Shown piece by piece: positions 20,590-42,770 of a stretch of 64,000 nucleotides of DNA. How positions within the stretch are numbered: the first letter of the stretch is position 1; each line of letters opens with the position of its first letter. The stretch covers positions 1 through 64,000 of the forward strand of contig JAQTVM010000003.1 in assembly GCA_028706745.1 (NCBI GenBank), in the 5' to 3' direction. Origin of the DNA: Candidatus Nanoarchaeia archaeon. GTDB taxonomy: Archaea > Nanobdellota > Nanobdellia > SCGC-AAA011-G17 > GW2011-AR17. Position numbers and translations under genes: made by a program. Below the pieces are notes generated by a model that had not been told where the DNA came from, did no database searches, and worked only from the letters and a program-made list of their open reading frames with translations.

Positions 20590-20640
20590 TTTCTATACCA
20601 AAGATTTAAATAAGGCCAAAGATTAAATCCTTTAGGTGAG

Positions 20641-21678
20641 ATGATGGCAAAAGAGGCGCATAAGAGTAATTCATTTGACAATAAAAAAGACGGCAAATTT
20701 ACATTTATAGATTTATTTGCGGGAATAGGCGGAATGCGCATTGCTTTTCAAAATTTAAAAGGAAATTGTGTATTCAGCTCGGAATGGGATAAGTTCTCGC
20801 AAAAAACTTATCAGGCCAATTTTGGAGAAATACCTGAAGGAGATATAACAAAAATAGATGCGAAGAATATCCCCTCTCATGATGTTCTCGTAGCGGGATT
20901 TCCATGCCAAGCATTTTCAATAGCAGGAAGACGTGCGGGTTTTGAAGATACCAGGGGCACCTTATTTTTTGATGTTGCAAGAATCATAAAAGAAAAGCAA
21001 CCAAAAGCGTTTTTATTGGAAAATGTAAAAGGTCTTAAAAATCATAAGGGGGGCAAAACGCTTAATACTATTCTCAATGTATTAAGAAATGATTTAGGCT
21101 ATTATGTTCCCGAGCCGCAAATTTTAAATGCCCTGAATTTTGGACTTCCACAGAATAGGGAGCGGATAGTAATAGTAGGTTTTAGAAAAGACCTGAAAAT
21201 TAATGAGTTTACATATCCTGCCACGTTAAATGAACATAAGGTATTTGCGGATGTAAAAGAAACTAAGCCAGTTACAGCCAGATATTATCTCTCGACAACT
21301 TATCTTAAATGCTTGAAGCAACATAAAAAGAGACATGCATCTAAAGGTAACGGTTTTGGTTATGAGATTATACCCGATAATAAACATACAAATGCAATTG
21401 TTGTAGGCGGAATGGGAAAAGAAAGAAATCTCATTATAGATCCGAGATTGAAAGATTTTACACCGGAAACAAAGATACAAGGCAAAGTAAACAGGGAAGG
21501 AATACGAAGAATGACTCCGCGCGAATGGGCTCGTTTGCAGGGATTTCCTGAAAAATTCCAAATACCAGTTTCCAATGCACAAGCTTATAAGCAATTCGGG
21601 AATTCTGTACCCATTAATATGGTGGAAGCCGTAGGAAATGAAATATTGAGGCATTTAAATGACAATAAAAGGCAATAA
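20641..21678 (+). CDS. DNA (cytosine-5)-methyltransferase
   Basis: FIDLFAGIGGMRIAFQ; GFPCQAFSIAGRRAGFEDTRGTLFF; ENVKGL; PQNRERIVIVGF; ARLQGFPEKF; YKQFGNSVPINM. Confidence 0.95.
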   Translation: MMAKEAHKSNSFDNKKDGKFTFIDLFAGIGGMRIAFQNLKGNCVFSSEWDKFSQKTYQANFGEIPEGDITKIDAKNIPSHDVLVAGFPCQAFSIAGRRAGFEDTRGTLFFDVARIIKEKQPKAFLLENVKGLKNHKGGKTLNTILNVLRNDLGYYVPEPQILNALNFGLPQNRERIVIVGFRKDLKINEFTYPATLNEHKVFADVKETKPVTARYYLSTTYLKCLKQHKKRHASKGNGFGYEIIPDNKHTNAIVVGGMGKERNLIIDPRLKDFTPETKIQGKVNREGIRRMTPREWARLQGFPEKFQIPVSNAQAYKQFGNSVPINMVEAVGNEILRHLNDNKRQ

Positions 21679-22732
21679 AGGCGAATGGACTGAGATTTAT
21701 GTTCTTCTCAAATTACTTGCTGACGGCAAATTGTACGCTGGAGATGAAAATCTAGGTATAATCTCAGATATTTATTCTAAAGTTTTAAGGATTGACAGAA
21801 AAGAAAAAGAAGGTGAGTATCATTATTTAAGAAATGATAAAATAAGTATCTTGGACTCAAATGGCAAAGTTTTAGTAGAACTCGATGCAACAGTATTTAA
21901 TGAAAATGCAAAAAAGCTGTTAAAAGAAATTAAAGAAGCTAAAGGGCCTTCATTTTCTGTTTCAGATGTGGAAGAGTTTATGCATATCATAAAATGTAAA
22001 AGTCTAAAAGCAAAATCTACGCAGAAATCAGATATTACTATCCAAATCAGCGAACCATCTAATCCTTTAAAAGTTACGCTTAAATTCAGCATAAAATCTC
22101 AATTGGGCCGAGCTTCAACTTTACTTAACCCGGGTAAAACTACTAACTTTGTATACAAGATTGATGCAAAAAGTATTAATAAAGATGAATTAAAATCTAT
22201 AGATCTTCAGACAAATCTAAAAAATAAAATAAAATCCCTTGAAATAAAAGGTTATAATCTGATATATGATCATATTGAAAGTGAGAATTTTCATTCAAAT
22301 CTTCGGTTAATAGAGTCTACTCTACCCGAGATGGTGGCTGCCGCGTTAGTAAAATTTTATGGCGGTAAATTTAAGACGCTTAAAGAATTAACTGATGAAT
22401 TGGAAAGAATAAATCCTTTGGGCTATTCAAAAAGCGGAGGACAGAAGCCCTATGAGCATAAAATGAAACAATTACTCTATGCCGCCGCACTAGGTATGAC
22501 TCCCGGAAAAATCTGGGAAGGAGAGTTCGAAGCCTTAGGGGGATATATTTTAGTAAATAAAAAAGGAGAGGTATTAGGTTATACTACACATAATCAGAAT
22601 AAGTTTATGGACTATCTTTTAAATAATACCAAATTTGAAATTGCAAGCAGAAGCAGATATAAGTTTGGTAAAATTTATAGCGAAAATGGGCAATATTATA
22701 CCAAATTAAACTTACAGATAAGATTTTTGTGA
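21659..22732 (+). CDS. Type II restriction endonuclease, probable HpaII family (CCGG)
   Basis: KGNKGEWTEIYVLLKLLADGKLYAGDENL start; start codon overlaps the end of the C5-MTase gene; specificity is inferred. Confidence 0.7.
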   Translation: MTIKGNKGEWTEIYVLLKLLADGKLYAGDENLGIISDIYSKVLRIDRKEKEGEYHYLRNDKISILDSNGKVLVELDATVFNENAKKLLKEIKEAKGPSFSVSDVEEFMHIIKCKSLKAKSTQKSDITIQISEPSNPLKVTLKFSIKSQLGRASTLLNPGKTTNFVYKIDAKSINKDELKSIDLQTNLKNKIKSLEIKGYNLIYDHIESENFHSNLRLIESTLPEMVAAALVKFYGGKFKTLKELTDELERINPLGYSKSGGQKPYEHKMKQLLYAAALGMTPGKIWEGEFEALGGYILVNKKGEVLGYTTHNQNKFMDYLLNNTKFEIASRSRYKFGKIYSENGQYYTKLNLQIRFL

Positions 22733-26048: not shown

Positions 26049-28343
26049 TTAAACCGGGCGGGGCGCTGCTGCGCTAATTCTCCCAATTTTTTCCTGCAGT
26101 TGCCTTAATGCAGGCTCGGAGAAAGTGTCGCCTCTTCCTTCTGCAGTGTCGCCATCGTGCTTCCACTGGCTTCTCATTATTGAATTAAGCCTTGGTCTTA
26201 AGAGATTGGAGCATCTTTCATCGCAAATCCCCCCGCATCCTTTCCAGTTTTCTTTTGCTTTGTCAGCAAGCTCATGCCCCCATTCCTCAACTGCTTCTTC
26301 ATAAGAAAGGCAGTTGGGATTTCCCGCTACCCCTTCTTTTCCCGGAGTTAATGTATGATATTCGTCTCTCAAGTCTCCAAAAGAATGCCCGAACTCGTGC
26401 GCAACAACAAGGGACTTGCCGTGTCTTGCAGAATTTAATTCATTATGTGATATAAATGCCAAATTATTATTCAATTCTGCATGCGCGCCAAATGTCTTTT
26501 TAGAGAGGGCTATTATGCTGTTTGCTCCTGCGCATTGCTTTGCAGTGCTTCTTATAATGCGGGCTGATGGCGCATAGCCTAATTCTTTTAAATCAGCAGG
26601 CATATTGCCTCCGTTAATCATGTAAAATTTGAATTTATCCTTATTTGACGCAAAAGGCTCAACTTCCAAAAGCCCCTTGTATTCGCCTTCGCCATTTAAT
26701 GCCAGATTGATATCATCCCTGAATTCCTGCATGTCAGAATACTCGTCTGAAACAAACAAGACATTGTATCCGCTCCCTGATGTTCCCGGCACTTGTGCGC
26801 ACGTTGATGCTGTAACGCACAGCTTGTCAATGCACTTTTTTCCTGCGCTGCATTCTGAATCTGCATTGCACCTGTAACTGCCTGCTCTTGCAGATATGAA
26901 TCCCTGGACTCTCTGCCCGTTAAGGTAGCAGTCTTTTGTTGTTGAAGGATTTTTGCATTCAAAAACATCATAAAATTCAAGAGGCTGCTCTCCCGCCTCC
27001 ACTGCATCTTTTGGCAGAAGATATGCCTTGAAGCTTATTCCCAAATCAAACCAGTTTCCGCTTGGTGTCACAATAATGTCGTCTTTATAAAACTTAATCT
27101 GCGTGCTTACGCCTTCTTTTTTTAGCGCTGCAAAGCTTGGCATGGCTTCATTTGCCGGCGTGTCAAAAGGCTCTATTTCTGCTTTTTCTGCAAATGACGG
27201 AATGTTAATTGAAAGCCACAGGGGCATTGCATTGCTGCCTGTTATTGCCCTTGGCTTTATGCTTATTTTTTTTTCGCTTTCATCCCACAAAATGCACCCC
27301 ATTCCGTCATAAGGCTCATCGTTTCCAATGCATTTTGTGTAAGGCATTATTCCTGAAAATATAAATGCGCCTCCGCTTGCAGCAAATGCAATGTTTGCCG
27401 GCGGCTGCGTTCCTTCCTTAAATGCCGCGACAAAATTATTTTGGGCTTTTGATTTTATGCCGTAACTTAAATCCGGAAATAATGAAACACCTGCATTTGC
27501 CCCTTCCGCAACAAGCGGAAAAAGCTCTCCTGAATTTGACTTTAGTTTAACTTTTGCCCACGAGCTGAATTCTGTATCAAACAATCTGCCTTTTTTTCCA
27601 AATGCGCCCGGCTCTCCTGCAGGAAGGGCTTCTATCTCAAATTTTGAAGTGTCTCCTATTGATACTAAGTGCAAGTCATAAGCGTCATATATGCCTTCGC
27701 ACTGCTCCGGGTCTGCTGTCATGCAGTCATCAACAGCTTCCTGCATCTTGACAAAACCCTCATTAAGATATTTTTGCAGGTTTCTCTGCCCTGATGAAAT
27801 GAATCCCTCTCCTGTAATGTTAAGGTATCCGCCTGCAGGCGTGACAACAGACACCATCTCGCAGTCTATGTATTCTTCTTCGCTGTCCCTGCAGCCAAGG
27901 AACCATCCGCCTCTTCCATTCTGGAATACTCCATTCTTGATTTCAAACAAAGCTCTTGAAGGCTCGCGCACGAGCGCATTGAATTCCCTGCCTTCAATTC
28001 TTACTGCATTGCCTGCTGTGACTGAGTTATAAAATCCGTTTGTCACTGTGAAAAATTTTCTTGCAGGGTCTGCTATTATCAGCCCGCCAAGCAAGCCAAA
28101 GTCCCTTAACTGCCCGCCGCGTATGTATTTTATGCTCAAGAATCCGGATTCGCTCGCTTCAATTACGCTTCCTTCGCCAAAAACCTCGGAAAGTTGTTCA
28201 GGATTGTATGCGGCATAAAGCCTTCCGCTGTCAACTCCGTAATATGCTTCCATGTCGTGCAATGTTTCTTTTCTTAATTCCTCTGCAAAAGCAGGCATTG
28301 AGATTATTATAAGGAATACAGCTGCAATAATTAACCTTTTCAT
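26049..28343 (-). CDS. Secreted M64 (IgA peptidase)-like metalloprotease
   Basis: Signal peptide MKRLIIAAVFLIIISMPAFAEE; YNVLFVSDEYSDMQEFRDDINLAL; VVAHEFGHSFGDLRDEYH. Confidence 0.75.
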   Translation of the reverse strand: MKRLIIAAVFLIIISMPAFAEELRKETLHDMEAYYGVDSGRLYAAYNPEQLSEVFGEGSVIEASESGFLSIKYIRGGQLRDFGLLGGLIIADPARKFFTVTNGFYNSVTAGNAVRIEGREFNALVREPSRALFEIKNGVFQNGRGGWFLGCRDSEEEYIDCEMVSVVTPAGGYLNITGEGFISSGQRNLQKYLNEGFVKMQEAVDDCMTADPEQCEGIYDAYDLHLVSIGDTSKFEIEALPAGEPGAFGKKGRLFDTEFSSWAKVKLKSNSGELFPLVAEGANAGVSLFPDLSYGIKSKAQNNFVAAFKEGTQPPANIAFAASGGAFIFSGIMPYTKCIGNDEPYDGMGCILWDESEKKISIKPRAITGSNAMPLWLSINIPSFAEKAEIEPFDTPANEAMPSFAALKKEGVSTQIKFYKDDIIVTPSGNWFDLGISFKAYLLPKDAVEAGEQPLEFYDVFECKNPSTTKDCYLNGQRVQGFISARAGSYRCNADSECSAGKKCIDKLCVTASTCAQVPGTSGSGYNVLFVSDEYSDMQEFRDDINLALNGEGEYKGLLEVEPFASNKDKFKFYMINGGNMPADLKELGYAPSARIIRSTAKQCAGANSIIALSKKTFGAHAELNNNLAFISHNELNSARHGKSLVVAHEFGHSFGDLRDEYHTLTPGKEGVAGNPNCLSYEEAVEEWGHELADKAKENWKGCGGICDERCSNLLRPRLNSIMRSQWKHDGDTAEGRGDTFSEPALRQLQEKIGRISAAAPRPV

Positions 28344-28382
28344 ATTTATCTATAAATAAAACAGAGTATATAAAAATGCCGA

Positions 28383-29120
28383 TTACCTTCGTTTGTAACC
28401 CTTTCCGGCAGGCTTTCCCATTTCCTTAAGCTCAGAAACAAATCTTCCGTAAGCCGCCTTTGCTTTTTCAGCGAGCCTGATTATTTTCTTTCTCTTCCTG
28501 TGCAGGACAACTGCAAGCACAACTATTATTATGGACAATGCAATTGAAATCAGCGCGGCAGCCTGCTTCTTTTCCTTTTCCTGTTTTTCGCAGTCTGCGT
28601 CAAATACGCAGTCAGGATCGCAAATATTATCATCCTTTGCAATGCATACTCCGTCCAAATCAGATATTGAGCAGTCTGAAGCGCAGGACACTGCATTCTC
28701 TTTTCTGCCGCATATTCCGTTATAATCGCAGACATCAAGGTATTGGCGCAATAAAATCCTGTTATCCTTGTATAATGCGATTTCATACATTCTTGAGTCA
28801 TACGGAAACTTCTCGGTTATTATCTCATATTCAGCTTTTCTTGGCGGGTTTGAAAGCTTGAAAAAGCTTAATTCATAATTCCTGCTCCACAAGGGAGTTC
28901 CTGCTGCGTCATTCACGGAAAGCATATACCTGCCTGTCTCGTTTGAGTAAGGCAATGCCCTGCCTTCATTTACCTTGTATTCCATTGCAGCAGAGCCGCT
29001 TTCAAAAACAAGCATATTGACTTCCAAAACAGATTCTGCTGAAACAACAGGAAGGAGCATGCAGGCTATCAAGATTACCATTGCCATTATCATATTGTTT
29101 TTCATGTTTATCACGTGCAC
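28383..29120 (-). CDS. Membrane-anchored protein with signal peptide, Cys-rich stalk and C-terminal TM
   Basis: MKNNMIMAMVILIACMLLPVVSAES; CDYNGICGRKENAVSCASDCS...NICDPDCVFDADC; ALISIALSIIIVVLAVVLHRKRKK. Confidence 0.65.
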   Translation of the reverse strand: MHVINMKNNMIMAMVILIACMLLPVVSAESVLEVNMLVFESGSAAMEYKVNEGRALPYSNETGRYMLSVNDAAGTPLWSRNYELSFFKLSNPPRKAEYEIITEKFPYDSRMYEIALYKDNRILLRQYLDVCDYNGICGRKENAVSCASDCSISDLDGVCIAKDDNICDPDCVFDADCEKQEKEKKQAAALISIALSIIIVVLAVVLHRKRKKIIRLAEKAKAAYGRFVSELKEMGKPAGKGYKRR

Positions 29121-31468
29121 TGCAGCTGCGGGTTTGCTTTCATCAGCAAATACTCGTCAATGCTGTATGAATTTGAGTCAATAAAATTTGACATTGCTGT
29201 TCTTTTGCCGGTATCCAGCATTCCGTTGCCGTCACTGTCTTTTGAGTTTATGTCGAGATTGCCTGAACACCATCTGCATTCTTCAAGGTAAGGATAAAGC
29301 TGCTCTGACCCAACACAGCACTTGTCGCCGCAGCCAAGTTCTGCCTTTAACGGGTTGGGCTTTGCTGCATATCCGCACAGGTTTTCAGCCTTTGTGCCTG
29401 TGCAGTCGCAGTACTGGTCCTTTAGCCCGAACTTGTGCCCCATTTCGTGAATCATATCACAGGCATTGTTTGCTTCAACAATTACAGCGTCTGAATTGTC
29501 TGATGTCCATCCCCTGTCTGCATAGATGCATTCGGGATATCCGGCAATGTCAGAGTCTTCCACCCCGACAACATAATCATAATCCTCCCCTGTTCTTGCC
29601 TTGTATTCTTCTGCGCAGGTTTTTATTGACGCAAGCGCGTCCTTGAGGCAGTTGTTTTCATTTTCTATAATGCAGCTTCCCGAGCTCCAATGAGGGCCGT
29701 AATCAGTTTTTCCGTCAACAAATATCCTGCTGAACCTGTATGGGCAGTCATTCAAGGGGGTTGCCTTGAGGAATTTTTCAAGCGCTTCGCTTGAATACAT
29801 AAGGTATGAAATCTTTCTTTCCCAGTTTACGGGCAATACCAGAATCTTCAGCCTTACTTCATATTTGGGAGTTTCCTCATTGCCGTAAGCATCGCATCCC
29901 TTGAAAGGCGTTTCGCATTTATTCGGGCAAACAATTGAATTTCTTGTATTTTCATTGAAATAGCACGCAGGATTCAGGTAATGGACCCCGTACCTGAAAA
30001 CAGACATTGCTTCTGCCTTGTTTTCATACTGCCTGCATATTTTTGAATCTTCAAAAAGCTCTGCATTTGCTGATTTGTCTGTAAGGGAATAAACAAGGGA
30101 TTTTTTTCCGTTTGCTATTTTCCCTATTTGCTGTGCTTTTGCAACTTGTTTCTTAACTTGTATTCCCTGAACAGGCTCTGCATTCTCATACTGCGTCCTT
30201 ATGCCGCCTTTGTGCCTTATTCTTATTGTGCTTTCAGACGCATACTCAACAATTCCGTCTTCAGCAGCATACACAGGGCTTCCTGCTGCTGCAGGAATTT
30301 CAATTCCCTTATTGCATCCTTCTTCTCCGGAGCCGAAGCATTCTGATATGTAATGGACGCCATTAAGCTTTTCAGCAGGCCATACAAATTCATATCCTTT
30401 TTTCATTGTGCACGGCTCTATTGAAGCCCTGTTCTGCCTTGCATCTTCCAGCCTTATTATGCCTGTTTCCCTTGAAATAAATCCTGCCTTTGAGCTGTTT
30501 GAGAAGAATACCGCTTTTTCAGCAAGCACTTCGCCTTTTTTGCATGCGCTCTTTAACTCAAGCGCGCTTTTTGAATATGAAACGCAAATCTCGGCTTTCC
30601 TGAATTCAGGCATGTCCGATGATTCAGCCAGAGGCTCTGCATCAACCTCCATCTTAAGCAATTCTTTTGCGTTTTTTCCATTTTCAGAGTATTCAAGAAC
30701 AAAAGAGTTTGATTTTTCCTGTGAAACCTGCCTTATTGAATATCCTTCCGGAAGGCTTATTCTTGAAAAGCTGCACATGCACACCCCTTTTGAAGAAGCA
30801 AATGCGCATTCATTGTATTCTTCTACAAATTTCTTGAATGATGCAAGAGCCAGCTCCTCTTTTTTCCTTTGCTTGAATGTGCACCTTGGAATCAGCGAAA
30901 AATAATCCTCAATGCTCTCCCTTGTTTCGTTTCCTGAAAGAATAAGGGATTCAGGGACAATGCAGGCAATTCCCTGCTTTGGCTTGTAAAGCTCCTCAAT
31001 TGAGCTCATCATGTAATGCCTTTCCAGGCTTTCGCCTTCAAGCACATACCATTCCTTCTTTTCAGCGTGTATTTCAAGCTTTTCGCTGCTCCAGCATCCT
31101 GTATCTTCCTTGTCCTGCATTATGCCTGTTGCCATGCCTGTGATTGTTTCTGAAATCCACGGTTTTCCTTTTTCAATCAGTGTAAGCTTCAGGTCATATC
31201 CCTGATTTTCCGCCTTTATTGAATACGAAGAAGGAAAGCGAACCCTGTAAATGTCGCACATGCAGTTTTCTTCCACGCTGCAGTCCCTGTATGCTTTTGC
31301 AAGGTTGTGGAATGCATTTGCAACCTCCTGCCTGTCCTTGTAATATTCATAATCCTTTTCAATGTGCTGCTGGGGATACATTACTTGTATTGCAAGAAAA
31401 AGCCCGCACGAAAGTATTGCAATTGTAAGAATGATGAAAACAAGGTTTGCTACGGGAAACTCGTCCAT
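29111..31468 (-). CDS. TM-anchored protein with duplicated Cys modules, degenerate M23-like domain and HExxH metalloprotease domain
   Basis: VNLVFIILTIAILSCGLFLA-type N-terminus; GIEIPAAAGSPVYAAEDGIVEYASESTIRIRHKGG; CDMIHEMGHKFGLKDQYCDC. Confidence 0.7.
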   Translation of the reverse strand: MDEFPVANLVFIILTIAILSCGLFLAIQVMYPQQHIEKDYEYYKDRQEVANAFHNLAKAYRDCSVEENCMCDIYRVRFPSSYSIKAENQGYDLKLTLIEKGKPWISETITGMATGIMQDKEDTGCWSSEKLEIHAEKKEWYVLEGESLERHYMMSSIEELYKPKQGIACIVPESLILSGNETRESIEDYFSLIPRCTFKQRKKEELALASFKKFVEEYNECAFASSKGVCMCSFSRISLPEGYSIRQVSQEKSNSFVLEYSENGKNAKELLKMEVDAEPLAESSDMPEFRKAEICVSYSKSALELKSACKKGEVLAEKAVFFSNSSKAGFISRETGIIRLEDARQNRASIEPCTMKKGYEFVWPAEKLNGVHYISECFGSGEEGCNKGIEIPAAAGSPVYAAEDGIVEYASESTIRIRHKGGIRTQYENAEPVQGIQVKKQVAKAQQIGKIANGKKSLVYSLTDKSANAELFEDSKICRQYENKAEAMSVFRYGVHYLNPACYFNENTRNSIVCPNKCETPFKGCDAYGNEETPKYEVRLKILVLPVNWERKISYLMYSSEALEKFLKATPLNDCPYRFSRIFVDGKTDYGPHWSSGSCIIENENNCLKDALASIKTCAEEYKARTGEDYDYVVGVEDSDIAGYPECIYADRGWTSDNSDAVIVEANNACDMIHEMGHKFGLKDQYCDCTGTKAENLCGYAAKPNPLKAELGCGDKCCVGSEQLYPYLEECRWCSGNLDINSKDSDGNGMLDTGKRTAMSNFIDSNSYSIDEYLLMKANPQLQCT

Positions 31469-31474
31469 GGTAAT

Positions 31475-33421
31475 TTACCTTATGCAAGGCGGACTTTCGC
31501 ATATTGCCAGAGTGTTGCCTGCGCGCTGCATCCAGATATTTTTTTCCACTGATTTGTCTCCTGTTTCGACAGAACCCTTTGCAAATACAGGCTGGAATCC
31601 GTAAGGCGGAAGCTTTATGCAGTAACTTTCCCTCAAGTCATATGTCTGCCTTTGCAATTCAGTGTAATACTGCCCTTCAGGATTGTTCTGTATGCATAAG
31701 CAGGTTTCCCCTTCAGGGCACCTGTAAGGCATTTCGCAGGAGGCAGAGCGCGGATTTGTGACCATCTCACAGGTTCTTCCTGTTTCATCAGTATGGCAAA
31801 CTTCTTCCTGCGTTTCTTCATTGCAGGGCGCCCCCCTGTCTTGTGCATCTTTTTGAATCAATGCAATCTTTGAATTTGAAGGCATTGGGAACATCATGTT
31901 GTAAAGACCTGCTGATTCTTCCATTGCTGACAATTCATTTGCAAGCTCTGCCATTGAACTCCAGTCAATTCCCCTGCAATCACTGTAAATGTCATACTCA
32001 CCTGTTGTGCATTCTCCTTTGTAATATTCTGCCGGAAGCTTTGGCATATGGCAAAGGAGCATGCCGGGGGATGTTATTGCTTTTTGAATTTCCTGTTCTG
32101 TTCTCCTTTTGCCGATAAACCTCTCGTGATTCTTTAATATCCAGTCATCGCCCCCTTCAACTTCATTGTTTCTCTTATAGGTTTCCATCAGTGTAATGGC
32201 TGATGTTGAAGTGCCTATTGTGTCTTCTGCTTTCAAGACAGCCCCTCCTGTGAATCCTGTCTTTGTTATTTCTGCCTTTGCCTTGTATGCAGACTCTATT
32301 GTCTTAAGCCCTGCAATTTTTACAACCCTTCCAACAATGCGGTTTGCAGCAGGGAAATGCTCGTAAGCGCTGTGAATCTCATATATTGTCACGCTTTTTC
32401 CCTCTTCGCCGCAGTTTGAGTCACAATAATCAGCAACAACCCCGTATGCAATCGGCGAAAAAACATTATTATTTTCATTCACATTAATTTTTATCCATCT
32501 TGAAAAGCTGTCTTGGCTGCTTCCGCAGGAATTAATGCCTGTAATATCCTCTGCATTAACAGGCCAGATTATTGAGTAATCCTTCCCTGATTCACCTTCG
32601 CATCCTGGAATTCTGAACATCTCTTCAGTTAGCCTGTCTCTTTCAAATGGAGTTGCACTTTCCTGTTTTTCAAATTTTATAATCTTAACCATATCCTCCC
32701 TTCCTGTCAAATCACCGAAATTAACAGGCTCTTCTTTTACTGCCTGCGTCATAAAGCAGATATTGTTTCCAATCTTGTGCATCTGCATTACAATGCCCTC
32801 GTGATAGAAATTGTAAGGTCCGTATCTGCCTGCCTTGAAAACTATTTTTCCGTCCTTCTTTTCAATAAGCATGTTTTCAAAAGTCAAATCAGGCACTATG
32901 CTTTCCTGCCCGTCTTTTGTTTGAATTGCCAGCTGATAAGCCTCCAGCGGTCTGCAAAGAATTCCTTCCATATTTTTTCCGTTTTCCTGCCATTCTGCGC
33001 TTAGCGCAAGGCTTATCTGCAGATTATTCAATCTTGAGGCATCTCCGACAGGCGCGTCATTTGCGTCAAAGGCGGCAATAAGAACATATTTTTCCTCAGG
33101 ACTGTCTGTCTTGTCAATCCTGTTCTGCAGGAACACCCTGTATCCTTCAGGAAGCTTTTCAAGCGCTTCCATGTCAAGCTCGCAGCCGCAGTTGTCAAGT
33201 GAGTGGTCAATGCAGTTGATTATTGAGCCGATTGTGCTTGCAGTGACAATCTGCAAAGCCTCGTTTTTCTTTGCATCCTCGCCCATCTTGAATGTCTCTT
33301 CTGCAATCTTTGCAACGTCTGAGAATGTTTCGGGATAAAATTTGTAAACCATGATGCCTGCTACAAAAAGCACTGCAAGTATAATCAATGCATACATCAC
33401 CCAGCTTGTGCTTTCTTCCAT
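31475..33421 (-). CDS. TM-anchored protein related to 29111-31468 (Cys module and degenerate M23-like domain)
   Basis: IINCIDHSLDNCGCELDMEALEKLPEGYRV; YSIIWPVNAEDITGINSCGSS...NNVFSPIAYGVVADYC. Confidence 0.6.
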   Translation of the reverse strand: MEESTSWVMYALIILAVLFVAGIMVYKFYPETFSDVAKIAEETFKMGEDAKKNEALQIVTASTIGSIINCIDHSLDNCGCELDMEALEKLPEGYRVFLQNRIDKTDSPEEKYVLIAAFDANDAPVGDASRLNNLQISLALSAEWQENGKNMEGILCRPLEAYQLAIQTKDGQESIVPDLTFENMLIEKKDGKIVFKAGRYGPYNFYHEGIVMQMHKIGNNICFMTQAVKEEPVNFGDLTGREDMVKIIKFEKQESATPFERDRLTEEMFRIPGCEGESGKDYSIIWPVNAEDITGINSCGSSQDSFSRWIKINVNENNNVFSPIAYGVVADYCDSNCGEEGKSVTIYEIHSAYEHFPAANRIVGRVVKIAGLKTIESAYKAKAEITKTGFTGGAVLKAEDTIGTSTSAITLMETYKRNNEVEGGDDWILKNHERFIGKRRTEQEIQKAITSPGMLLCHMPKLPAEYYKGECTTGEYDIYSDCRGIDWSSMAELANELSAMEESAGLYNMMFPMPSNSKIALIQKDAQDRGAPCNEETQEEVCHTDETGRTCEMVTNPRSASCEMPYRCPEGETCLCIQNNPEGQYYTELQRQTYDLRESYCIKLPPYGFQPVFAKGSVETGDKSVEKNIWMQRAGNTLAICESPPCIR

Positions 33422-33425
33422 GTTT

Positions 33426-33593
33426 TTACCTTAATCCTATTGTTGACAGAAAACTCTGCCATGCATCTAATGACTTTTCCCTCAGCTTTCCGCTGAATAT
33501 GAGCATTACAACAAGCACCACCAGCGCAAGCAGTAATATTGCAACATAATCAAGGGCAAGCTTTCCTTTTTTTGTTTTGAAATATCCTGTCAT
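33426..33593 (-). CDS. Small pilin-like membrane protein, 55 aa (MTGYFKTKKGKLALDYVAILLLALVVLVVMLIFSGKLREKSLDAWQSFLSTIGLR)
   Basis: Read from sequence; KKG-KLALD resembles class III signal KG|QAALE; start overlaps the upstream stop. Confidence 0.55.
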   Translation of the reverse strand: MTGYFKTKKGKLALDYVAILLLALVVLVVMLIFSGKLREKSLDAWQSFLSTIGLR

Positions 33594-34363
33594 AACCCCA
33601 GCGCTCCTGCAATCCTGTTTATTATGTACCGCCTGTCTCCTCCATATGGTATCTCAACCAGCTGGCTCTGGTCAACAAGCGACCAGCAGTAATAAGCCCC
33701 TTCCTGCTTCAGGTTTGGCTTTCCTGCAATCACTATCTTGTCGCCATATTCCCCGCCCTGCCCTAATATCTCTGTATCGTCCCAGAACATTATGTAATAA
33801 TACGCAGGCCTTCCTTCTGAATCCAGCTTTTTTAATATGGGCTTGCCTTCAGCACCGCCTGTGCCGTGAATCTGCTTTCCTGTGCAGATTGTTCTTCCCT
33901 GCGAGCCTTTTTCAAGGTAAGTGTAATCTGAATCTGCGAGATTGCCAACAGGAGTTCCGTCTCTTGTTGCATAAAGATAGCCCATGAACTGCATAATGTC
34001 AATGTCCTCTGAAACAGAGAAGAAATAAACCATTGTTTCTTTGTCATCTCCTGCCTCAAAGTCCCAGTCTCCCTTGCCGTACATCCACCATGACTTTTTC
34101 ATCATTGAGGCAAGCCCTTTCATGTCAACAGGCTCTTCAACATTGAAGATGTCGCACGCAGACGGAAGAAGCTCTTTTGTTATTATGCTGCCTGACCTGA
34201 ATCCGTTTGAAGCCCAGCAGCCGTACTCTTTCATGTCTTTCATGTTAATGCCGCCAACAACCATCCACACAATGCCCCCGATTACAACAGCTGCCGCAAT
34301 ATACAATATTATCTTTACAAGCATGCTTGTTTCTATCTCTCCTTTCTTGCTGAACATTTTCAT
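33590..34363 (-). CDS. Membrane-anchored protein with pilin-like N-terminus, 257 aa
   Basis: MKMFSKKGEIETSMLVKIILYIAAAVVIGGIVWMVV. Confidence 0.6.
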   Translation of the reverse strand: MKMFSKKGEIETSMLVKIILYIAAAVVIGGIVWMVVGGINMKDMKEYGCWASNGFRSGSIITKELLPSACDIFNVEEPVDMKGLASMMKKSWWMYGKGDWDFEAGDDKETMVYFFSVSEDIDIMQFMGYLYATRDGTPVGNLADSDYTYLEKGSQGRTICTGKQIHGTGGAEGKPILKKLDSEGRPAYYYIMFWDDTEILGQGGEYGDKIVIAGKPNLKQEGAYYCWSLVDQSQLVEIPYGGDRRYIINRIAGALGL

Positions 34364-34458
34364 AGGTTAGCGCCTGACTTTAATTTCATTACTATTGCAA
34401 ATATCAATACTCCAACCAGTATTGCCAAAACCAGCATTATCACGCTTCTTGTTGCCAA
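34360..34458 (-). CDS. Tiny single-TM ORF, 32 aa (TTG start)
   Basis: LATRSVIMLVLAILVGVLIFAIVMKLKSGANL; 4-nt ATGA overlap with the next gene. Confidence 0.35.
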   Translation of the reverse strand: MATRSVIMLVLAILVGVLIFAIVMKLKSGANL

Positions 34459-34471
34459 TTTTTCCTCTTTT

Positions 34472-36685
34472 TTATCCTGCTGCCAATGCCTTCTGCGCAA
34501 TCATTGCAGCCAGGGCATTGAACACAAGCATCGTAAGCCCTGCCACCACTATATAAAAGACAGTGCCCTTATATAAGTTTTTGCCGAGCGAATATTCCTC
34601 GTTTAATTTGTCAACCCCGTTTTCTATTCCGTTTCCAAGTATGGTAAGCACGTATATGACTTCAACAAGGTAAATTCCCACAACAATCTGCAGGAAATAA
34701 GGGGGCATTAACCCTGACAAGTCAAACATGTCAATGGGGATTCCGCCCAAACCGCCTGTTTCTGCTCCGCCCTGCATTTCAAGCGTGCTTGCAAGCCCGC
34801 CCATTATTGCGGTAATCATTGTGCCTATGCCCACAACAATGCCTGATATTACAGGCGACAAAAATGAAACCTGCGCTTTCATTGAACTTGATGTTTCTGC
34901 AAGCAAGTCCTTTAATCTTTCATTAACCTTGTTAATCCTGTCAAGGTATGTTGAGATGTTAATCATTGCCTTTGACACAACAGCGGGGCCCTTGTTTGAT
35001 GTTTCAACCAAAACCCTCATTGAGCTGTCAATCAAGGAGCTTGGATATTCGTTTATTGCTCCCACTTTTTCGTCAAAGATTGCATTCCTGACGCTCATTC
35101 CGCCTCTTCTTATGTTGTTGTCAACTATTGCAAAGAAGTTTCCTGTTGGTGTGCCGTGAAGTGTTTCAGCGACAGAGCTGAATGCCATTTCAGTGGGTAT
35201 TCCGGAGCCAAGCCTGTTGCCAAGCTGGAACAATGCGCCCTGGAATTCATTCTCAAGCTTTTTTGTCTCATTCCTTACAACCATTAGCCTGTTTGAGCGT
35301 ATCTTGTAATACATGCCCATTCCAACTGCAATTCCCAGAGTGATAAGCAGGCTGAGCAATGATGCGCCTATTCCGAAAGGTCCTGCTGTTTTTGTGACTT
35401 CTGTGTCCCCGCAGAGCATGTCAACATCCTTGTATTCAAGAATCCATCCAAACGGCTGTTCAGGGTCTCCTATAGGGAAATCTGTTCCGGGCATTACCAT
35501 GTGCATAACCAAAGGCAGAAGTCCGATAAGAACTATCATTGAGCCGTATATCCACGCAATCTTTTTCGGGCTTACTTCCACTCCGCCTGAGATATACATT
35601 CTCATGCTCCTGTATTTTGGATGACTTTCATAAATATTCGTCTGCGCATATCCCACCGGCCTTTTTGCCATTATCCTGTATCCCATGAAATAAACACCTA
35701 TTGGAAGAGCGATGTTGTAAAGCAGGGCAAGCTGATACCATTTTACGCCCATGAATGCGCCCACAAGAGGGAGGATTATCAAGCCCAATACAGGAAGTAT
35801 GACTCCAAGCATGTGAAGCGTTGTGATGGGCCCTTTTGTTTCCTGCGCATAATGCATCATGTTGTTGTAAGTTCCTTCAAGCATTACTTCAAGGGCTTTT
35901 TCAAGAAGCTCAACCCTTCTCTGCTCATTGCCTTCAAACAATGACGACTCAATAAGGTGGAATGCCTCTATGAATTCAAGGTTGAAGTCCTTCCACTGCT
36001 CAAGGTAAATGTCAATTGCCGTCTTTATGTTTGAATACTTCTGCGTTTCAACATCCCATACTATTTTTCTCAGGTCCAGGGCAAGAGGATTGCCGATATG
36101 CTCTCCTGCAAACTTTATCGCGTGCTCAAGGTTTGAAGTGTGCCTCATGTACATCACTATATATAATATGCAGAGAACCATTTGGTTTGACGCCTGCAGG
36201 CGCCATTTCATTGCAAGATGCAGGGGATAATTGCTTATTATCTTGACACAAGCTATTCCTCCGATAATAAGTATTATGGGAAGCAGGAGCTGTGTTGAGC
36301 AGGTTATGCCTGCCTCTGTAAGAAAAAATGAGATTCCCAGTATTGCAACGCCGAGTATTATCAGCATTATCATCACAAGAGTGCCAAGGGAATAAGCTCC
36401 GGCGGGAGTGATGCCGAGATGGCACCTTTCTATTGCCTCATCCAGCTTTTTTGCATCCTCGGGCTTTGGCTCAACCTTCAGCACTTTTTCCGCAAAATTG
36501 CACGCCTGTTCATAAAATCCCAGGCTTGACTTCAATGCCTCATCCCTGAAAACAGTGTAATCCTTTGAGAAAATCTTTTCAGGGCCCGGCTCGTCCATCA
36601 TGTTGGGACCAAGCCTTGAATCTATCTTCATGCCGTACCTGCCCATTATTTTTTCAACGTTTGCGTCAGAGCCCAGTATGCCCAT
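34472..36685 (-). CDS. Archaeal type IV pilus-type membrane platform protein (TadC/GspF/FlaJ-like)
   Basis: Multi-TM protein with two GspF-like halves (LGNRLGSGIPTEMAFSSVAETLHGTPTGNFFAIVDNNIRRGGMSVRNAIFD); a GspE-like ATPase gene lies at 40476-42770. Confidence 0.75.
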   Translation of the reverse strand: MGILGSDANVEKIMGRYGMKIDSRLGPNMMDEPGPEKIFSKDYTVFRDEALKSSLGFYEQACNFAEKVLKVEPKPEDAKKLDEAIERCHLGITPAGAYSLGTLVMIMLIILGVAILGISFFLTEAGITCSTQLLLPIILIIGGIACVKIISNYPLHLAMKWRLQASNQMVLCILYIVMYMRHTSNLEHAIKFAGEHIGNPLALDLRKIVWDVETQKYSNIKTAIDIYLEQWKDFNLEFIEAFHLIESSLFEGNEQRRVELLEKALEVMLEGTYNNMMHYAQETKGPITTLHMLGVILPVLGLIILPLVGAFMGVKWYQLALLYNIALPIGVYFMGYRIMAKRPVGYAQTNIYESHPKYRSMRMYISGGVEVSPKKIAWIYGSMIVLIGLLPLVMHMVMPGTDFPIGDPEQPFGWILEYKDVDMLCGDTEVTKTAGPFGIGASLLSLLITLGIAVGMGMYYKIRSNRLMVVRNETKKLENEFQGALFQLGNRLGSGIPTEMAFSSVAETLHGTPTGNFFAIVDNNIRRGGMSVRNAIFDEKVGAINEYPSSLIDSSMRVLVETSNKGPAVVSKAMINISTYLDRINKVNERLKDLLAETSSSMKAQVSFLSPVISGIVVGIGTMITAIMGGLASTLEMQGGAETGGLGGIPIDMFDLSGLMPPYFLQIVVGIYLVEVIYVLTILGNGIENGVDKLNEEYSLGKNLYKGTVFYIVVAGLTMLVFNALAAMIAQKALAAG

Positions 36686-36756
36686 TATTAGTTCACTTAT
36701 CCCTCTTTTATATAATTCTAAATATGCTATTTTAGTGGGCTTTTGGATTTATAAAT

Positions 36757-36798
36757 GTAGTTAGTAGTGTTTAGTTGGTAGTTTGTAGTTGTTGGCAA
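36757..36798 (+). repeat. Period-7 degenerate intergenic repeat (locus 5)
   Basis: GTAGTTA GTAGTGT TTAGTTG GTAGTTT GTAGTTG TTGGCAA. Confidence 0.8.
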
Positions 36799-36955
36799 AA
36801 CGAAAACAAAGAATATGGGCAGAGATTACTTCTTCCTTGCCCTTAAATCCTCAACAAACAAACTGCAGACAGTTTGATCATCAAGGCGGGCATCTCACTT
36901 CGTTCGTGCCCACCGAAATGTTTCAAAGAATACTTATTCTTACACAGCAATATAC

Positions 36956-37441
36956 TTATTTTTTTCTAGCCCGGAGGTCCTCAACAATTCTGCCAAGCTC
37001 TTTTATGTTTGAAGTCAAAGGCTCCAGAATCTTCTGCATTACCTGCTCAAGCGCTTTCATCTCGGCTGAAAGGTCTTTCATTGAGCCTTCATATTCTCCG
37101 ACTTTTCCAATCATTGCTGCCTGCATTGTGTCAAACCTTGACTGCAGCCTGAGAATTTCCTGCTTTGCAGATTCCATGTCATCCTCAACCTGCACTTTCC
37201 AGGTTGTGATGTCGCCCATGCTGGTCAGCATGTCTTTCCATTTTTCCTCAATTATTTCCTCAACAACAGACTGCATCTCGTCATAGCTCATTGAAGTTGA
37301 AGAAGGCATTTGCGGAAGCTCTGCAGAAGGCGTCATTGACGGCATTGCAGCAGTTGGTGTCGGAGCCGGCACCGGAATATCTTCCTCAACCTGGTTTATT
37401 GCAGAAATCTGCATGTTCTCATTAGGGTTTTCTTCCGGCAT
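36956..37441 (-). CDS. Coiled-coil protein, Pro-rich N-terminus
   Basis: SYDEMQSVVEEIIEEKWKDMLTSMGDITTWKVQVEDDMESAKQEI... Confidence 0.6.
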   Translation of the reverse strand: MPEENPNENMQISAINQVEEDIPVPAPTPTAAMPSMTPSAELPQMPSSTSMSYDEMQSVVEEIIEEKWKDMLTSMGDITTWKVQVEDDMESAKQEILRLQSRFDTMQAAMIGKVGEYEGSMKDLSAEMKALEQVMQKILEPLTSNIKELGRIVEDLRARKK

Positions 37442-37898
37442 TCAGTTTCACCTCTTTCTTTTGCATTGGCTGTTCAGGCTCTTTTGCCCTTGCGGGCTCA
37501 TTCTGGGCAGGAATATTATCCTGTTTTCCCTCTTCAATCCGCCTTAATTCCCTCTGCACGATGTTTTTCACATCGCTGTCTGTCACAAAATTAAGAGGGT
37601 TCCACAGCTTAATATACTTTTCCAATAGCTTTACCTCGTCCTTTCTTGAAAAATTCGCAGCCTCTTCTGACAAATGCTTAAGTATGTTCTTGACTTTTTC
37701 AAGGTCATTTTTTACATCCCTTATCTCTGCTTCTTCCGCCTTAATGTCCTTTGTAAGTTTCTTGTGGTGCTCTATCATGTTCTGGTTGACAAGAAGAAGC
37801 CTTTCGCTCATAAGAGTGTATTTGCTCTCAAGAATCCTTATCCTGTTGACAAGTTCGACAATTATGTCCTGGCCCTGCTGTTCAGCCTCTCCTTCCAT
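37422..37898 (-). CDS. Coiled-coil protein, 158 aa
   Basis: 20-nt overlap with the downstream gene; coiled coil. Confidence 0.6.
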   Translation of the reverse strand: MEGEAEQQGQDIIVELVNRIRILESKYTLMSERLLLVNQNMIEHHKKLTKDIKAEEAEIRDVKNDLEKVKNILKHLSEEAANFSRKDEVKLLEKYIKLWNPLNFVTDSDVKNIVQRELRRIEEGKQDNIPAQNEPARAKEPEQPMQKKEVKLNAGRKP

Positions 37899-39048: not shown

Positions 39049-39083
39049 AACACTAATTAGTAAATAACTTACTAATTGGTGTT
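39049..39083. promoter_or_regulatory. Inverted repeat at the AbiE-like start (putative autoregulatory operator)
   Basis: AACACTAATTAGTAA-ataac-TTACTAATTGGTGTT, 14/15 complementary, ends 4 nt before ATG 39088. Confidence 0.65.
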
Positions 39084-39087
39084 AAAA

Positions 39088-39588
39088 ATGCGAGGATTGT
39101 CAAGCAAGGAGATGGAAATTGTGTCGTGGCTGGAGTTTTACAAAAAGTATTTCTTCTCAGCCAAAGATATAGAGCAATTTTCAAAAAGCAGGATGCAAAG
39201 GTATAACATTATCAAGGGGCTTATACAAAAAGGGAGAATAGTAAAGCTGGGCAAAACAAGATACTGCCTTGTTCCTGTAAAGGCAAAGTCAGGCAAATGG
39301 GCAGAGCACCCTTTCATAATAGCTGACGAGGCTTGCGGAGGGAAGGATTACTTCATAGGGGGATGGGCGGCTGCAAACTACTGGGGGCTTACAGAACAGA
39401 TTCCCATGCAGACAGACGTGTATACAACGAGAAGGCAGGGTGTTCTTGAAGCGCTAAGCTCAAGGATTGTTTTTCACAGGACAACAAAGGCAAAAGCAGA
39501 AAGGGCTGTAAAAAAAGAAATCAGCAAACATAGGTTCAGGATACAGCCAAAAAAGGATTCAAGAAAATGGATGGAATCAAGGCAATAA
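39088..39588 (+). CDS. AbiEi-like antitoxin
   Basis: N-terminal wHTH; KSGKWAEHPFIIADEACGGKDYFIGGWAAANYWGLTEQIP. Confidence 0.75.
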   Translation: MRGLSSKEMEIVSWLEFYKKYFFSAKDIEQFSKSRMQRYNIIKGLIQKGRIVKLGKTRYCLVPVKAKSGKWAEHPFIIADEACGGKDYFIGGWAAANYWGLTEQIPMQTDVYTTRRQGVLEALSSRIVFHRTTKAKAERAVKKEISKHRFRIQPKKDSRKWMESRQ

Positions 39589-40373
39589 GCGAGGATGAGC
39601 TGAGGGACATAGCATCAAAAATGCCTTACAGCTGGCTTGTGCTTGTTAAGGACTACTACATTACCATTATGCTTTGCCTGCTGAAAGAAATAGACGGAAT
39701 ATATTTTAAGGGAGGCACTGCCCTGCAAAAAGTATTTCTCAGGCATACAAGGCTAAGCGAAGACATAGATTATACTGTTAAGGGGAATTTGAAGGAAATT
39801 ATTGAGAAGATAACAGGAATTCTTGAAAAGAGCGGGCTGTTCACCGGTATGGCTGTTGAAAAAGAGAGGGAAGGCTTTGCAAGGATTACTGCAAAATACA
39901 GGGCATTCGGAAAATATGAAGGCAGCGTGTTCATAGATCTCAATAGCAGGGGCACTATATTAAGAAATCCGGAAATGCATTCTGTGAACCATTTTTATGC
40001 AGGGTTTATACCTGAATTTGAAATCAGGACACTTGCAAAGGCAGAGGCTGCTGCGGAAAAGGTAAGGGCAGCAATACAAAGAAACAAGCCAAGGGACCAT
40101 TATGACATTTACATGATTCTCAAGGCAGGAATTCCAATAGATAATGAAATTGTAAGGATGAAATGCGCGGATTCCGGAATAGAGTTTGACATTACAAAAA
40201 TGTTCAACAAGGCAAGCAGGCTTAAGCACAGGTGGGATGATGATTTAATGCCATTGATGGCTGAAAAAGTTTCTTTCGATGAAGTTATGAAAACGCTGGC
40301 AGGGCATTTCAAGCTGAAGGAAGAGAAAAAAGCGAAAAAAGAATTTAATGCAAAGAAACAGAAAACAGGATAA
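39567..40373 (+). CDS. AbiEii-like nucleotidyltransferase toxin
   Basis: GIYFKGGTALQKVFLRHTRLSEDIDYTV; overlaps the antitoxin gene. Confidence 0.88.
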   Translation: MDGIKAISEDELRDIASKMPYSWLVLVKDYYITIMLCLLKEIDGIYFKGGTALQKVFLRHTRLSEDIDYTVKGNLKEIIEKITGILEKSGLFTGMAVEKEREGFARITAKYRAFGKYEGSVFIDLNSRGTILRNPEMHSVNHFYAGFIPEFEIRTLAKAEAAAEKVRAAIQRNKPRDHYDIYMILKAGIPIDNEIVRMKCADSGIEFDITKMFNKASRLKHRWDDDLMPLMAEKVSFDEVMKTLAGHFKLKEEKKAKKEFNAKKQKTG

Positions 40374-40475: not shown

Positions 40476-42770
40476 ATGGCAGACGAAAACACTAAAGTTC
40501 CCCCCGGCGGGTACCAGATTGTCAAGGAAGGCAACGAAGACATAATGAGAGTTAATTACGAGCAGGCTCCATATTCCCCTTCTGTTGAAGACAATGCAAT
40601 GGTAATGATGGATGCCATTGACAAGCTTGCCGAGAATCCGTCTGTCGCAAGGCTCATATTCCTGCAGAGAAGATTTTATGAATACTCTTACGAGCAGACG
40701 CAGATGCTTGTGGAAGTTGCAAACCTTTACAGCTACCTGATAAAATCCAAAAAAGTTTTAAGCCCTGACTCGCTGGGCGCGTCATTTGAAAACCAGGGAA
40801 CACTTGCAGAAAGGTATGCTGTCATACACTCAATTGTTTTTGAGCTTTTGCGCTCTGACCCGCTTGGAGCATATGTTGAAATCAAGAGGGTTTTAAGGGC
40901 TGAATTGGCAAAGCAGGATGCGACAAAAGAGCCAAGGCAGAGGGATTCAAGGGAAATATTTCTTGGGCTTTTGAAAGCAATTCTCACAATGTTTGAAGAA
41001 ATGAAAATTGTCAAGGCAGCTTCGCAGTATCTTGCAGGGTACAACATAGGGGACAGGAGCATATACAAGATTTTTTTCAGGGCTGTCATTGCGCCTGACT
41101 TCATGTTTACAAGAGTGATGGCAAACCCGCCTATGGGCGGAGAAGAGATGGAAGTATACAGCATTGACAAGGACACAAGTGTTACCATATTCAGGGTTCC
41201 TGATGACATAAAGTTCCTTTACCACATGACTCCGCCGGAGTTTACAATCAGCGAGGACAAGTATGCGCTTGTTGACATGGCAAAAACAGTGCTCTCAGAG
41301 CACAAGCCGAAAGAGGACCAGTTTCTTGACCCGCACAAGCTAAGGAACACATTTTCAAACATAGGAAAGGATTTGTTAAGGGAGCTTGCAGAGGCGCAGA
41401 ATGTTGAGCTTTCAATGAAAGACATCAAGCTCCTTACTGAGATTATTATCAGGCATACAATCGGGTTTGGCTTCATGGAGCTTATCTTAAAGGACCCGAG
41501 GGTGCAGGATGTGCAGATTAATTCGCCAAACGGCGAAGTTCCCATATTTGTCCTGCACGAGACTTTCGGCAACTGCACAACAAACCTCATACCTGCCAGG
41601 ACTGACACAGAAAGCTGGGCTTCAAAATTCAGGCTGCTGAGCGGAAGGCCATTGGATGAGGCAAACCCCATACTTGACACTGAACTGCATCTTCCGAATT
41701 CAACTTCAAGAGTTTCAATGATTACAAAGCCGCTGAATCCTTTCGGGCTTGCTTTCTCTTTCAGAAGGCACAGGGACGAGCCGTGGACGCTGCCTTTGTT
41801 TGTCAAGAACAGGATGCTGAACCCCCTTGCAGCAGGTCTTATCAGCTTTCTTGTTGACGGCACAAGGACGCTGCTTGTTGCAGGAACAAGGTCAAGCGGT
41901 AAAACCTCGTTATTGGGCGCGTGCATGATTGAAATAATGAGGAAAAACAGGATTCTTACTGTTGAAGATACACTTGAACTTCCGACAGAGGCAATGAGAA
42001 AGCTGAACTATGACATTCAGCCGCTGAAAGTCAGGGCTGCGCTTATGGAAGGCGGAACTGAAATGTCTGCTGCAGAGGGAATCAGGACTTCATTAAGAAT
42101 GGGAAACAGCGCGCTGATTATAGGAGAAGTAAGGAGCAAGGAAGCAATTGCATTGTATGAGGCAATGAGAATCGGCGCAATGGCCAACACTGTCGCAGGC
42201 ACTATTCACGGCGACTCGCCTTACGGGGTTTATGACAGGGTTGTCAATGACCTGGGTGTTCCAAAGACTTCATTCAAGGCTACTGACATTATAATTGTCG
42301 CAAACCCATTGAAAAGCCCTGACGGGCTGCACACGTGGAGAAGAATTACGCAGATTACAGAAGTGAGAAAAGAGTGGGAGGAAGACCCGATGACAGAGGG
42401 GGCATTTGTTGACCTGATGAGGTATAATTCACAGACAGACCAGCTTGAGCCGACGCCCGAGCTGATAAACGGCGAATCAGAAATACTCAAGGCATTGGGA
42501 GCAAATGTCAAGGAATGGACAGGAAACTGGGACGCGATATGGGACAACATAATGCTCAGGGCGGATATAAAGAAGCTGATTGTTGATTATGCCGCGCGCA
42601 CAAAAAATCCCCTTATGCTTGAGGCGAAATTTGTAATACAGGCAAATGATGTTTTCCACAGGATTTCAGAGCAGATTCTTGAAGAAGCAGGGCACATAGA
42701 CACAAAGAAAATTCTTTTTGAGTGGGAAGAGTGGCTGAAGAAGGAAGTAAGAAAACATCAGATGGAGTAG
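40476..42770 (+). CDS. Type II/IV secretion-type ATPase (GspE/TadA-like)
   Basis: LLVAGTRSSGKTSLLGA Walker A; ILTVEDTLELP; ALIIGEVRSKEAIALYEAMRIGAMANTVAGTIHGDS. Confidence 0.9.
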   Translation: MADENTKVPPGGYQIVKEGNEDIMRVNYEQAPYSPSVEDNAMVMMDAIDKLAENPSVARLIFLQRRFYEYSYEQTQMLVEVANLYSYLIKSKKVLSPDSLGASFENQGTLAERYAVIHSIVFELLRSDPLGAYVEIKRVLRAELAKQDATKEPRQRDSREIFLGLLKAILTMFEEMKIVKAASQYLAGYNIGDRSIYKIFFRAVIAPDFMFTRVMANPPMGGEEMEVYSIDKDTSVTIFRVPDDIKFLYHMTPPEFTISEDKYALVDMAKTVLSEHKPKEDQFLDPHKLRNTFSNIGKDLLRELAEAQNVELSMKDIKLLTEIIIRHTIGFGFMELILKDPRVQDVQINSPNGEVPIFVLHETFGNCTTNLIPARTDTESWASKFRLLSGRPLDEANPILDTELHLPNSTSRVSMITKPLNPFGLAFSFRRHRDEPWTLPLFVKNRMLNPLAAGLISFLVDGTRTLLVAGTRSSGKTSLLGACMIEIMRKNRILTVEDTLELPTEAMRKLNYDIQPLKVRAALMEGGTEMSAAEGIRTSLRMGNSALIIGEVRSKEAIALYEAMRIGAMANTVAGTIHGDSPYGVYDRVVNDLGVPKTSFKATDIIIVANPLKSPDGLHTWRRITQITEVRKEWEEDPMTEGAFVDLMRYNSQTDQLEPTPELINGESEILKALGANVKEWTGNWDAIWDNIMLRADIKKLIVDYAARTKNPLMLEAKFVIQANDVFHRISEQILEEAGHIDTKKILFEWEEWLKKEVRKHQME

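Follow-up and report, generated by a model that had tools for sequence, protein, structure and literature searches.

A probable Tad-like type IV pilus of Nanoarchaeota with exchangeable hydrolases on its array subunits

What kind of surface structure is encoded by a compact run of ten genes in a nanoarchaeal genome, and what might the hydrolases associated with it cut? The run lies in a 64,000-nucleotide window (contig JAQTVM010000003.1 of assembly GCA_028706745.1, positions 1 to 64,000, to which all coordinates refer unless a contig or locus is named) of the 1.24-Mb archaeal genome of a Candidatus Nanoarchaeia archaeon, here numbered G000. An earlier note, made from the sequence alone, had read positions 26049–37898 as an undescribed type IV pilus-like platform with membrane-anchored metalloproteases. 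We compared the locus with 145 relatives, most of whose genomes were metagenome-assembled genomes of mixed quality. It probably specifies an archaeal type IV pilus of Tad-like type in Nanoarchaeota, with modular array subunits bearing exchangeable hydrolases aimed at other cells. Directly observed were a conserved locus of ATPase, TadC, and coiled-coil genes, an ordered pilin-like array, and a concentration of hydrolase genes in that array; in addition, the N-terminal half of one window protein, P3, is common to subunits at the third array position (slot 3) that elsewhere end in an SLT transglycosylase. This pattern of a carrier with an exchangeable hydrolase, visible in the relatives and missed by the earlier note, is the real point of interest.

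Platform, ATPase, and pilin-like array

All ten open reading frames (ORFs) were present on the minus strand, co-directional and mostly abutting or overlapping, as the earlier note had described. The set was kept in order nearly whole in same-genus genomes (27–93% identity). Because of this conserved order and because the TadC-like protein had matches in 136 of the 145 relatives, the ORFs were regarded as genes rather than chance reading frames. The run starts with two cytoplasmic coiled-coil proteins, CC1 (158 amino acids (aa), 37422–37898), which stands beside the ATPase and TadC genes throughout the order (25–83% identity), and CC2 (161 aa, 36956–37441), which stands beside CC1 throughout the order. 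The TadC/FlaJ-like platform protein (737 aa, 34472–36685) was mostly a single, well conserved copy with about 45–60% identity within the order. Its PF00482 (T2SSF) match was weak (residues 486–624, E 0.05, below the cut-off), and its assignment to the GspF/TadC/FlaJ platform family draws weakly on sequence and strongly on gene context.

The assembly ATPase (764 aa, 40476–42770, plus strand), which the earlier note had described as GspE-like and merely nearby, is a TadA/FlaI-type secretion ATPase of the GspE/VirB11 family as judged by its sequence, matching TIGR03819 (3.9e-36) and the FlaI model (5.5e-36), both below the model cut-offs, and the PDB entries of afGspE (1e-25), CpaF (6e-25), and FlaI. 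The usual order in relatives was multi-transmembrane (TM) proteins, the coiled-coil pair on the opposite strand, and then the ATPase and TadC together; the ATPase was directly upstream of TadC in most relatives, and still so in the congeneric G002. In G001, G003, and the window, the coiled-coil and TadC genes are merged into a single strand-unit. This unit is cut off from the ATPase in the window by a HAD gene and by an inserted toxin–antitoxin pair of the AbiE type (an AbiEii-type toxin and its probable AbiEi partner, 39076–40373, plus strand), which lies between the ATPase and the coiled-coil genes. Because the ATPase adjoins TadC in relatives, we consider it part of the pilus system and its separation in the window a rearrangement. 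Three paralogous multi-TM proteins (43093–43626, 43627–44199, and 44200–44751, minus strand), of which many relatives have between one and three copies upstream of CC2, are likely accessory membrane proteins of the pilus locus. The pilus itself is not a local, undescribed system; its locus is a core locus of the Nanoarchaeota order and nearly universal there. The C4 ATPase was also considered as the pilus ATPase and was not supported, its N-terminus resembling by eye a known PIN-fused ATPase family. Next to membrane genes on contig C3 of the window genome (L080:4447-8597) lies another secretion ATPase (PF00437, 1.1e-32), apparently part of a second type IV filament-like system.

Behind TadC, the relatives carry about ten pilin-like genes in conserved order. 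A class III-like leader was detected in 313 of 679 ORFs downstream of TadC and in 12 of 503 other ORFs (Fisher P about 3e-75), and an N-terminal TM segment in 574 and 122 of them, respectively, which marks the array as a set of putative prepilin-like subunits with class III leaders. Slots 1, 2, and 3 are represented in the window by P6 (pilin-like, 257 aa, 33590–34363, N-terminus SKKG|E), the mini-pilin P5 (55 aa, 33426–33593, class III-like leader KTKKG|KLALDYV), and P4 (648 aa, 31475–33421, TM-anchored and Cys-rich with a C-C-x-C domain, placed by a slot-3 profile match), all on the minus strand like the other genes of the run. The leader test was positive for P5, a near miss for P6, and negative for P3 and P4. 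Both P5 and P6 have counterparts behind TadC across the order: slot-1 homologues of P6 occurred in most family-f1 loci and, by profiles that mix slots, in 44 loci, and slot-2 counterparts of P5 occurred in many loci. Single-slot profiles of short pilins cross-match via a shared helix, and the slot letters of small proteins are approximate. A 46-aa TM peptide, P7 (34360–34500), had counterparts in two genus relatives (43–79% identity) and none elsewhere among the relatives' loci.

The array is split in the window's genus. Profiles of subunits F and H located its missing half on contig C28 of the window genome, which also holds a D subunit with an RKG leader, and the missing subunits of G001–G003 were likewise on other contigs. 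An A24 prepilin peptidase (PF01478), which the earlier note had proposed to look for, is encoded on contig C7 of the window genome, and in one relative the peptidase gene lies inside the pilus locus. A type IV pilus-class system is likely, because platform, ATPase, pilin-like array, and peptidase occur together. The pilus-like platform of the earlier note was thus borne out by ATPase, TadC, and pilin-like genes in conserved order, and its small ORFs by the 55-aa frame kept across the order.

Hydrolases carried by array subunits

The window's own link between pilus and hydrolase is P3 (785 aa, 29111–31468), a slot-3-type subunit with an N-terminal TM helix, a LytM/M23 domain, and a predicted C-terminal zincin, HEMGHKFGLKDQY. 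The earlier note had listed P4 and P3 as large TM-anchored Cys-rich proteins but had missed these two domains of P3. The N-terminal half of P3 contains two copies of a domain with a spaced C...C-x-C and a P-x-x-Y motif, which by eye is also present in P4 and in slot-3 proteins and some H proteins of relatives. A P3 profile matched slot 3 of G029 (positions 14–281, E 1e-16) and G056 (positions 18–263, E 7e-14), where the proteins end in an SLT transglycosylase (E 7.6e-27 and 1.5e-20, respectively) with an E-S-x-W-N motif.

Weak zincin-type Pfam matches were obtained for P3 and P1. In all six available P3 sequences the stretch HExGHKFGLxDQYCDC, which includes the zincin motif HExGHKFGLxDQY, is invariant, as is a candidate Met-turn, M-S-N, assigned by eye; the C-terminus therefore has the HExxHxxGxxD signature and Met-turn expected of a zincin/metzincin. 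The Pfam M23 match of P3 (2.4e-11; LytM region at residues 386–455) appears to mark a catalytically dead domain: the H-x-G-x-D and H-x-H residues are absent in all six homologues, the first His being replaced by N, G, or S and H-x-H missing, and an active M23 peptidase was rejected for this reason. The best structural matches of the region were the LytM domains of EnvC and DipM. P4, which evolves fast (27–70% identity in the genus), probably holds a degenerate LytM-like region, as suggested by a local profile match to that of P3 (E 4e-4).

Homologues of P3 were found in the four genus members (G000–G003), G005, and G006. In every one of these genomes P3 is followed by its partner P2 (245 aa, 28383–29120), which was not found elsewhere in the relatives' pilus loci searched and is by sequence a type I membrane protein, with a signal peptide, a Cys-rich ectodomain, and a C-terminal TM anchor. 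The P3–P2 pair is syntenic with pilus genes in G000–G003 and G006 and lies between array genes in G005, so that the association of protease and pilus genes claimed by the earlier note holds in relatives. In both G005 and G006, P3 directly follows the slot-2 mini-pilin and precedes P2 and then subunit B. An iterated profile had pointed to P3 and array slot D as orthologues; this was rejected, since a separate D subunit exists on contig C28 and since P3 occupies slot 3 in G005 and G006. Outside the array, G006 also encodes a further slot-3-like protein with SLT and Amidase_3 domains at its end, directly followed by a secreted transglutaminase-core protein (L249:5042-6976).

The claim of the earlier note did not survive for P1 (764 aa, 26049–28343), a secreted M64-like protease (HEFGHSFGDLRDEY, candidate Met-turn SIMR) with a PF09471 (M64) score of 16.1 bits, below the 26-bit cut-off. 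P1 adjoins the pilus locus in G000, G001, and G003, and one of 77 large array proteins, probably P1 of G003, scored 1.9e-5 for M64. Further family copies lie on other contigs of the window genome (G000:C29:58230-61682 and G000:C25:8506-10836), with many matches in G002. P1, which belongs to a multi-copy, dispersed secreted family, was accordingly rejected as a specific part of the pilus machine and is probably not a member of the pilus set; among the supposed metalloproteases, only P3 shows a link to the pilus.

In relatives, other enzymes occupy the array. A Pfam scan of the 77 large array proteins detected SLT (6), M23 (4), M15 (3), Amidase_2 (2), and phage lysozyme (1) domains, and a scan of 150 smaller array proteins added one more SLT and the prepilin peptidase of one relative. 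The SLT-bearing array subunits, besides those of G029 and G056, were from G018 (SLT and Amidase_2 behind a KKG leader), G044 (SLT and, by eye, an amidase-like tail behind a KRG leader), G045, G021, G070, G077, G082, and G086. Intact M23 domains stood behind an NKRG leader in subunit E of G026 and in slot D of G045, whose single array thus carries both this domain and SLT in slot 3. M23, Amidase_2, and phage lysozyme subunits were found in G037, G049, and G127, respectively, and probable M15 subunits, below the Pfam cut-off and assigned by motifs, in G055, G076, and G095. KKG/KRG leaders were present on the fusions of G018, G026, G044, G045 (slot D), G070, and G086, which thereby combine a class III leader moiety with an extra domain, the arrangement expected of a modular pilin. 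Overall, array-encoded hydrolase domains above Pfam cut-offs were found in 20 genomes of nine families (G000–G003, G005, G006, G018, G021, G026, G029, G037, G044, G045, G049, G056, G070, G077, G082, G086, and G127).

SLT and M23 domains occurred in 65 and 37 of the 145 genomes, respectively. In the 9 kb that follow TadC, the same strand carried 10 SLT genes, where 0.51 were expected (Poisson P 2e-10; the match in G100, one of the ten, fell short of the Pfam cut-off), and 6 M23 genes, where 0.25 were expected (P 3e-7); none of either kind was found within 9 kb upstream. These P values overstate the evidence, since a single origin underlies five of the six M23 cases, but the direction is clear; the SLT cases are spread across families f2, f5, f9, f12, f13, and f16. 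SLT domains were also seen outside the array in many relatives, within giant proteins encoded by open frames of about 2000–2700 aa (G047, G066, G082, G141, and others).

Targets and competing explanations

The proposed pilus would work as follows. The Cys-rich (C...C-x-C) domains of a subunit, together with its hydrophobic helix at the N-terminus, would form the carrier, with a lineage-specific hydrolase at the C-terminus; the ATPase and TadC would assemble or extrude the array subunits, as either a filament or a short tip complex, and the enzyme, displayed at the surface, would cut into the envelope of an adjacent cell when the two touch. The relatives' enzymes would cut bacterial murein, and in the window's genus the zincin, scaffolded by the dead LytM domain and acting with P2, would cut a surface protein (S-layer or wall-linked). 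The gain may be attachment, entry, or nutrients.

Regarding the target, transpeptidase matches occurred in 5 and a single Mur-ligase-type match in 6 of the 145 genomes; no genome had both, and no murein synthesis pathway was seen. The relatives thus offer their murein hydrolases no evident substrate within their own cells, and action on bacteria is favoured. For the window's genus, with its predicted zincin and apparently dead LytM domain, the target may instead be a protein. Penicillin-binding-type transpeptidase domains in frames of 834–1037 aa were noticed in G055, G070, G081, and G095 (family f12), three of which also carry array-borne murein-hydrolase-like domains.

Several observations weigh against the reading of a pilus with hydrolase-bearing subunits. 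Most array subunits have no recognised enzyme, many SLT and M23 genes of the relatives lie outside the array, and the enrichment figures include related genomes and presuppose a uniform background. The slot-3 proteins, including P3 and P4, mostly have no recognisable class III leader and may for that reason stay anchored in the membrane rather than enter a filament; P3 of the window has a TM helix and domains and no clear leader, and that of G006 has KKS|Q. The LytM domain of P3 is inactive by its residues. The AlphaFold2 model of P3 was poor (pLDDT 36), with neither a zincin nor a pilin fold resolved, and that of P6 was moderate (pLDDT 62.6), showing an N-terminal helix (residues 12–37) and an alpha/beta head with no PDB or pilin match, so that a pilin fold is not confirmed.

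These same facts supply the strongest competitor, in which P3 and its counterparts are ectoenzymes that merely share an operon with a pilus used for attachment, staying in the membrane to scavenge peptides or murein fragments. The missing slot-3 leaders, the type I topology predicted for P2, and the P1 paralogues and many SLT and M23 genes outside the locus all agree with it. We nevertheless consider it rather unlikely, given that several fusions do have KKG/KRG leaders and that the fusions hold fixed slots of a conserved pilin array in which they are enriched. Bacterial secretion systems cross their own wall with dedicated murein hydrolases, and hydrolases of the array could similarly act on the producer's envelope, opening the S-layer for the pilus or serving pilin processing and turnover. 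The P3 enzyme is a predicted protease, for which the cell's own S-layer is a possible substrate, and a census of archaeal type IV pili suggests pilin processing or degradation by pilus-linked surface peptidases, as for those of the transglutaminase family (PMC4858521). Such self-maintenance is unlikely, as SLT, amidase, M23, and lysozyme domains recur at the same array positions in cells with no evident murein, and different domains in one slot fit external targets better.

A type II secretion-like pseudopilus pushing out soluble proteases such as P1 would agree with the TadC/GspE homology and with the position of P1 beside the locus in three genomes. It is highly improbable: P1 has copies on other contigs, P1 and P2 carry ordinary N-terminal signal-like sequences, the relatives' enzymes are fused to array subunits rather than free, and archaea generally lack an outer membrane that would have to be crossed. 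With so many genomes being metagenome-assembled, bacterial hydrolase genes might also have been joined to archaeal contigs by assembly or contamination, which we can hardly credit, as the fusions read as uninterrupted ORFs within arrays, on contigs that also carry archaeal TadC or other array genes, recur in nine families, and in the case of P3 are conserved in six genomes. The reading of a Tad-like pilus with exchangeable hydrolases on its subunits is thus retained as the probable one, and of the surface machine outlined in the earlier note, the pilus-like platform with the putative metalloprotease P3 in the same conserved gene order is supported, with P1 removed. A bolder version, held only tentatively, is that the pilus could be a contact weapon or entry device whose modular pilins present murein hydrolases or proteases at the tip against envelopes of bacterial or archaeal hosts or prey, the enzymes being swapped as hosts change, as an archaeal analogue of the tips of the Myxococcus Kil pilus.

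Other features and relation to known systems

Elsewhere in the window, on the plus strand, we found a signal peptidase II (LspA, PF01252, 1.4e-28; 15112–15585), which in an archaeon implies either lipoprotein processing or an acquired gene; a complete HpaII-type restriction-modification cassette of Vsr endonuclease, C5 methyltransferase, and HpaII endonuclease (20158–22732); and a phospholipase D-like protein that carries a signal or anchor sequence at its N-terminus (59945–60871).

The closest known kinds are bacterial. The modular pilins PilB and PilC of Streptococcus sanguinis likewise graft a functional module onto a pilin moiety for a type IV filament, and the survey describing them names predicted S74 and M26 peptidase modules (PMC8179133). 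They differ in being bacterial and in having been found by the IPR012902 N-terminal motif, and the words archaea and hydrolases do not occur in the survey text (PMC8179133); the Nanoarchaeota locus, in contrast, has fixed slots in one locus with many alternative hydrolases, and several of its carriers are without a class III leader. The Tad-like Kil predation pilus of Myxococcus has an ATPase and platform of the Tad-type family, several minor pilins, and interchangeable tips with variable terminal domains, but is bacterial and works with a needleless type III secretion system (PMC12075869). The words hydrolase and peptidoglycan are not in that paper, and use against other cells, described for the Kil pilus, is only proposed for the Nanoarchaeota pilus.

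Among archaeal systems, the census of Makarova, Koonin, and Albers (2016) describes, in its available part, the same components (VirB11/GspE-type ATPase, TadC/FlaJ, multiple pilins, and A24 prepilin peptidase), could not match one nanoarchaeal ATPase clade with its cognate pilins, and makes no mention there of hydrolase-bearing pilins (PMC4858521). Archaeal peptidoglycan hydrolases (PMC12352652) and 'vampiristic' Woesearchaeota (PMC9723730) provide murein hydrolases in Nanoarchaeota/DPANN that are proposed to act on bacteria; the former paper does not mention pilins nor the latter pili, whereas the murein hydrolase domains described here are fused to pilus-array subunits. EnvC and DipM are bacterial cell-division regulators, EnvC being an amidase activator, and the P3 domain, likewise dead by sequence, is instead joined to a predicted zincin, both on a TM-anchored carrier. 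The literature searched, which did not extend to subscription papers and preprints, contained no report of archaeal pilins bearing hydrolases, and the exchangeable-enzyme pattern was not met there.

The means by which DPANN archaea attack other cells, or feed on them, are still an open question. A core pilus locus with hydrolases at fixed subunit positions points to bacteria as targets for many lineages, and it supplies a gene order together with a short enzyme list, both amenable to expression, proteomics, and imaging.

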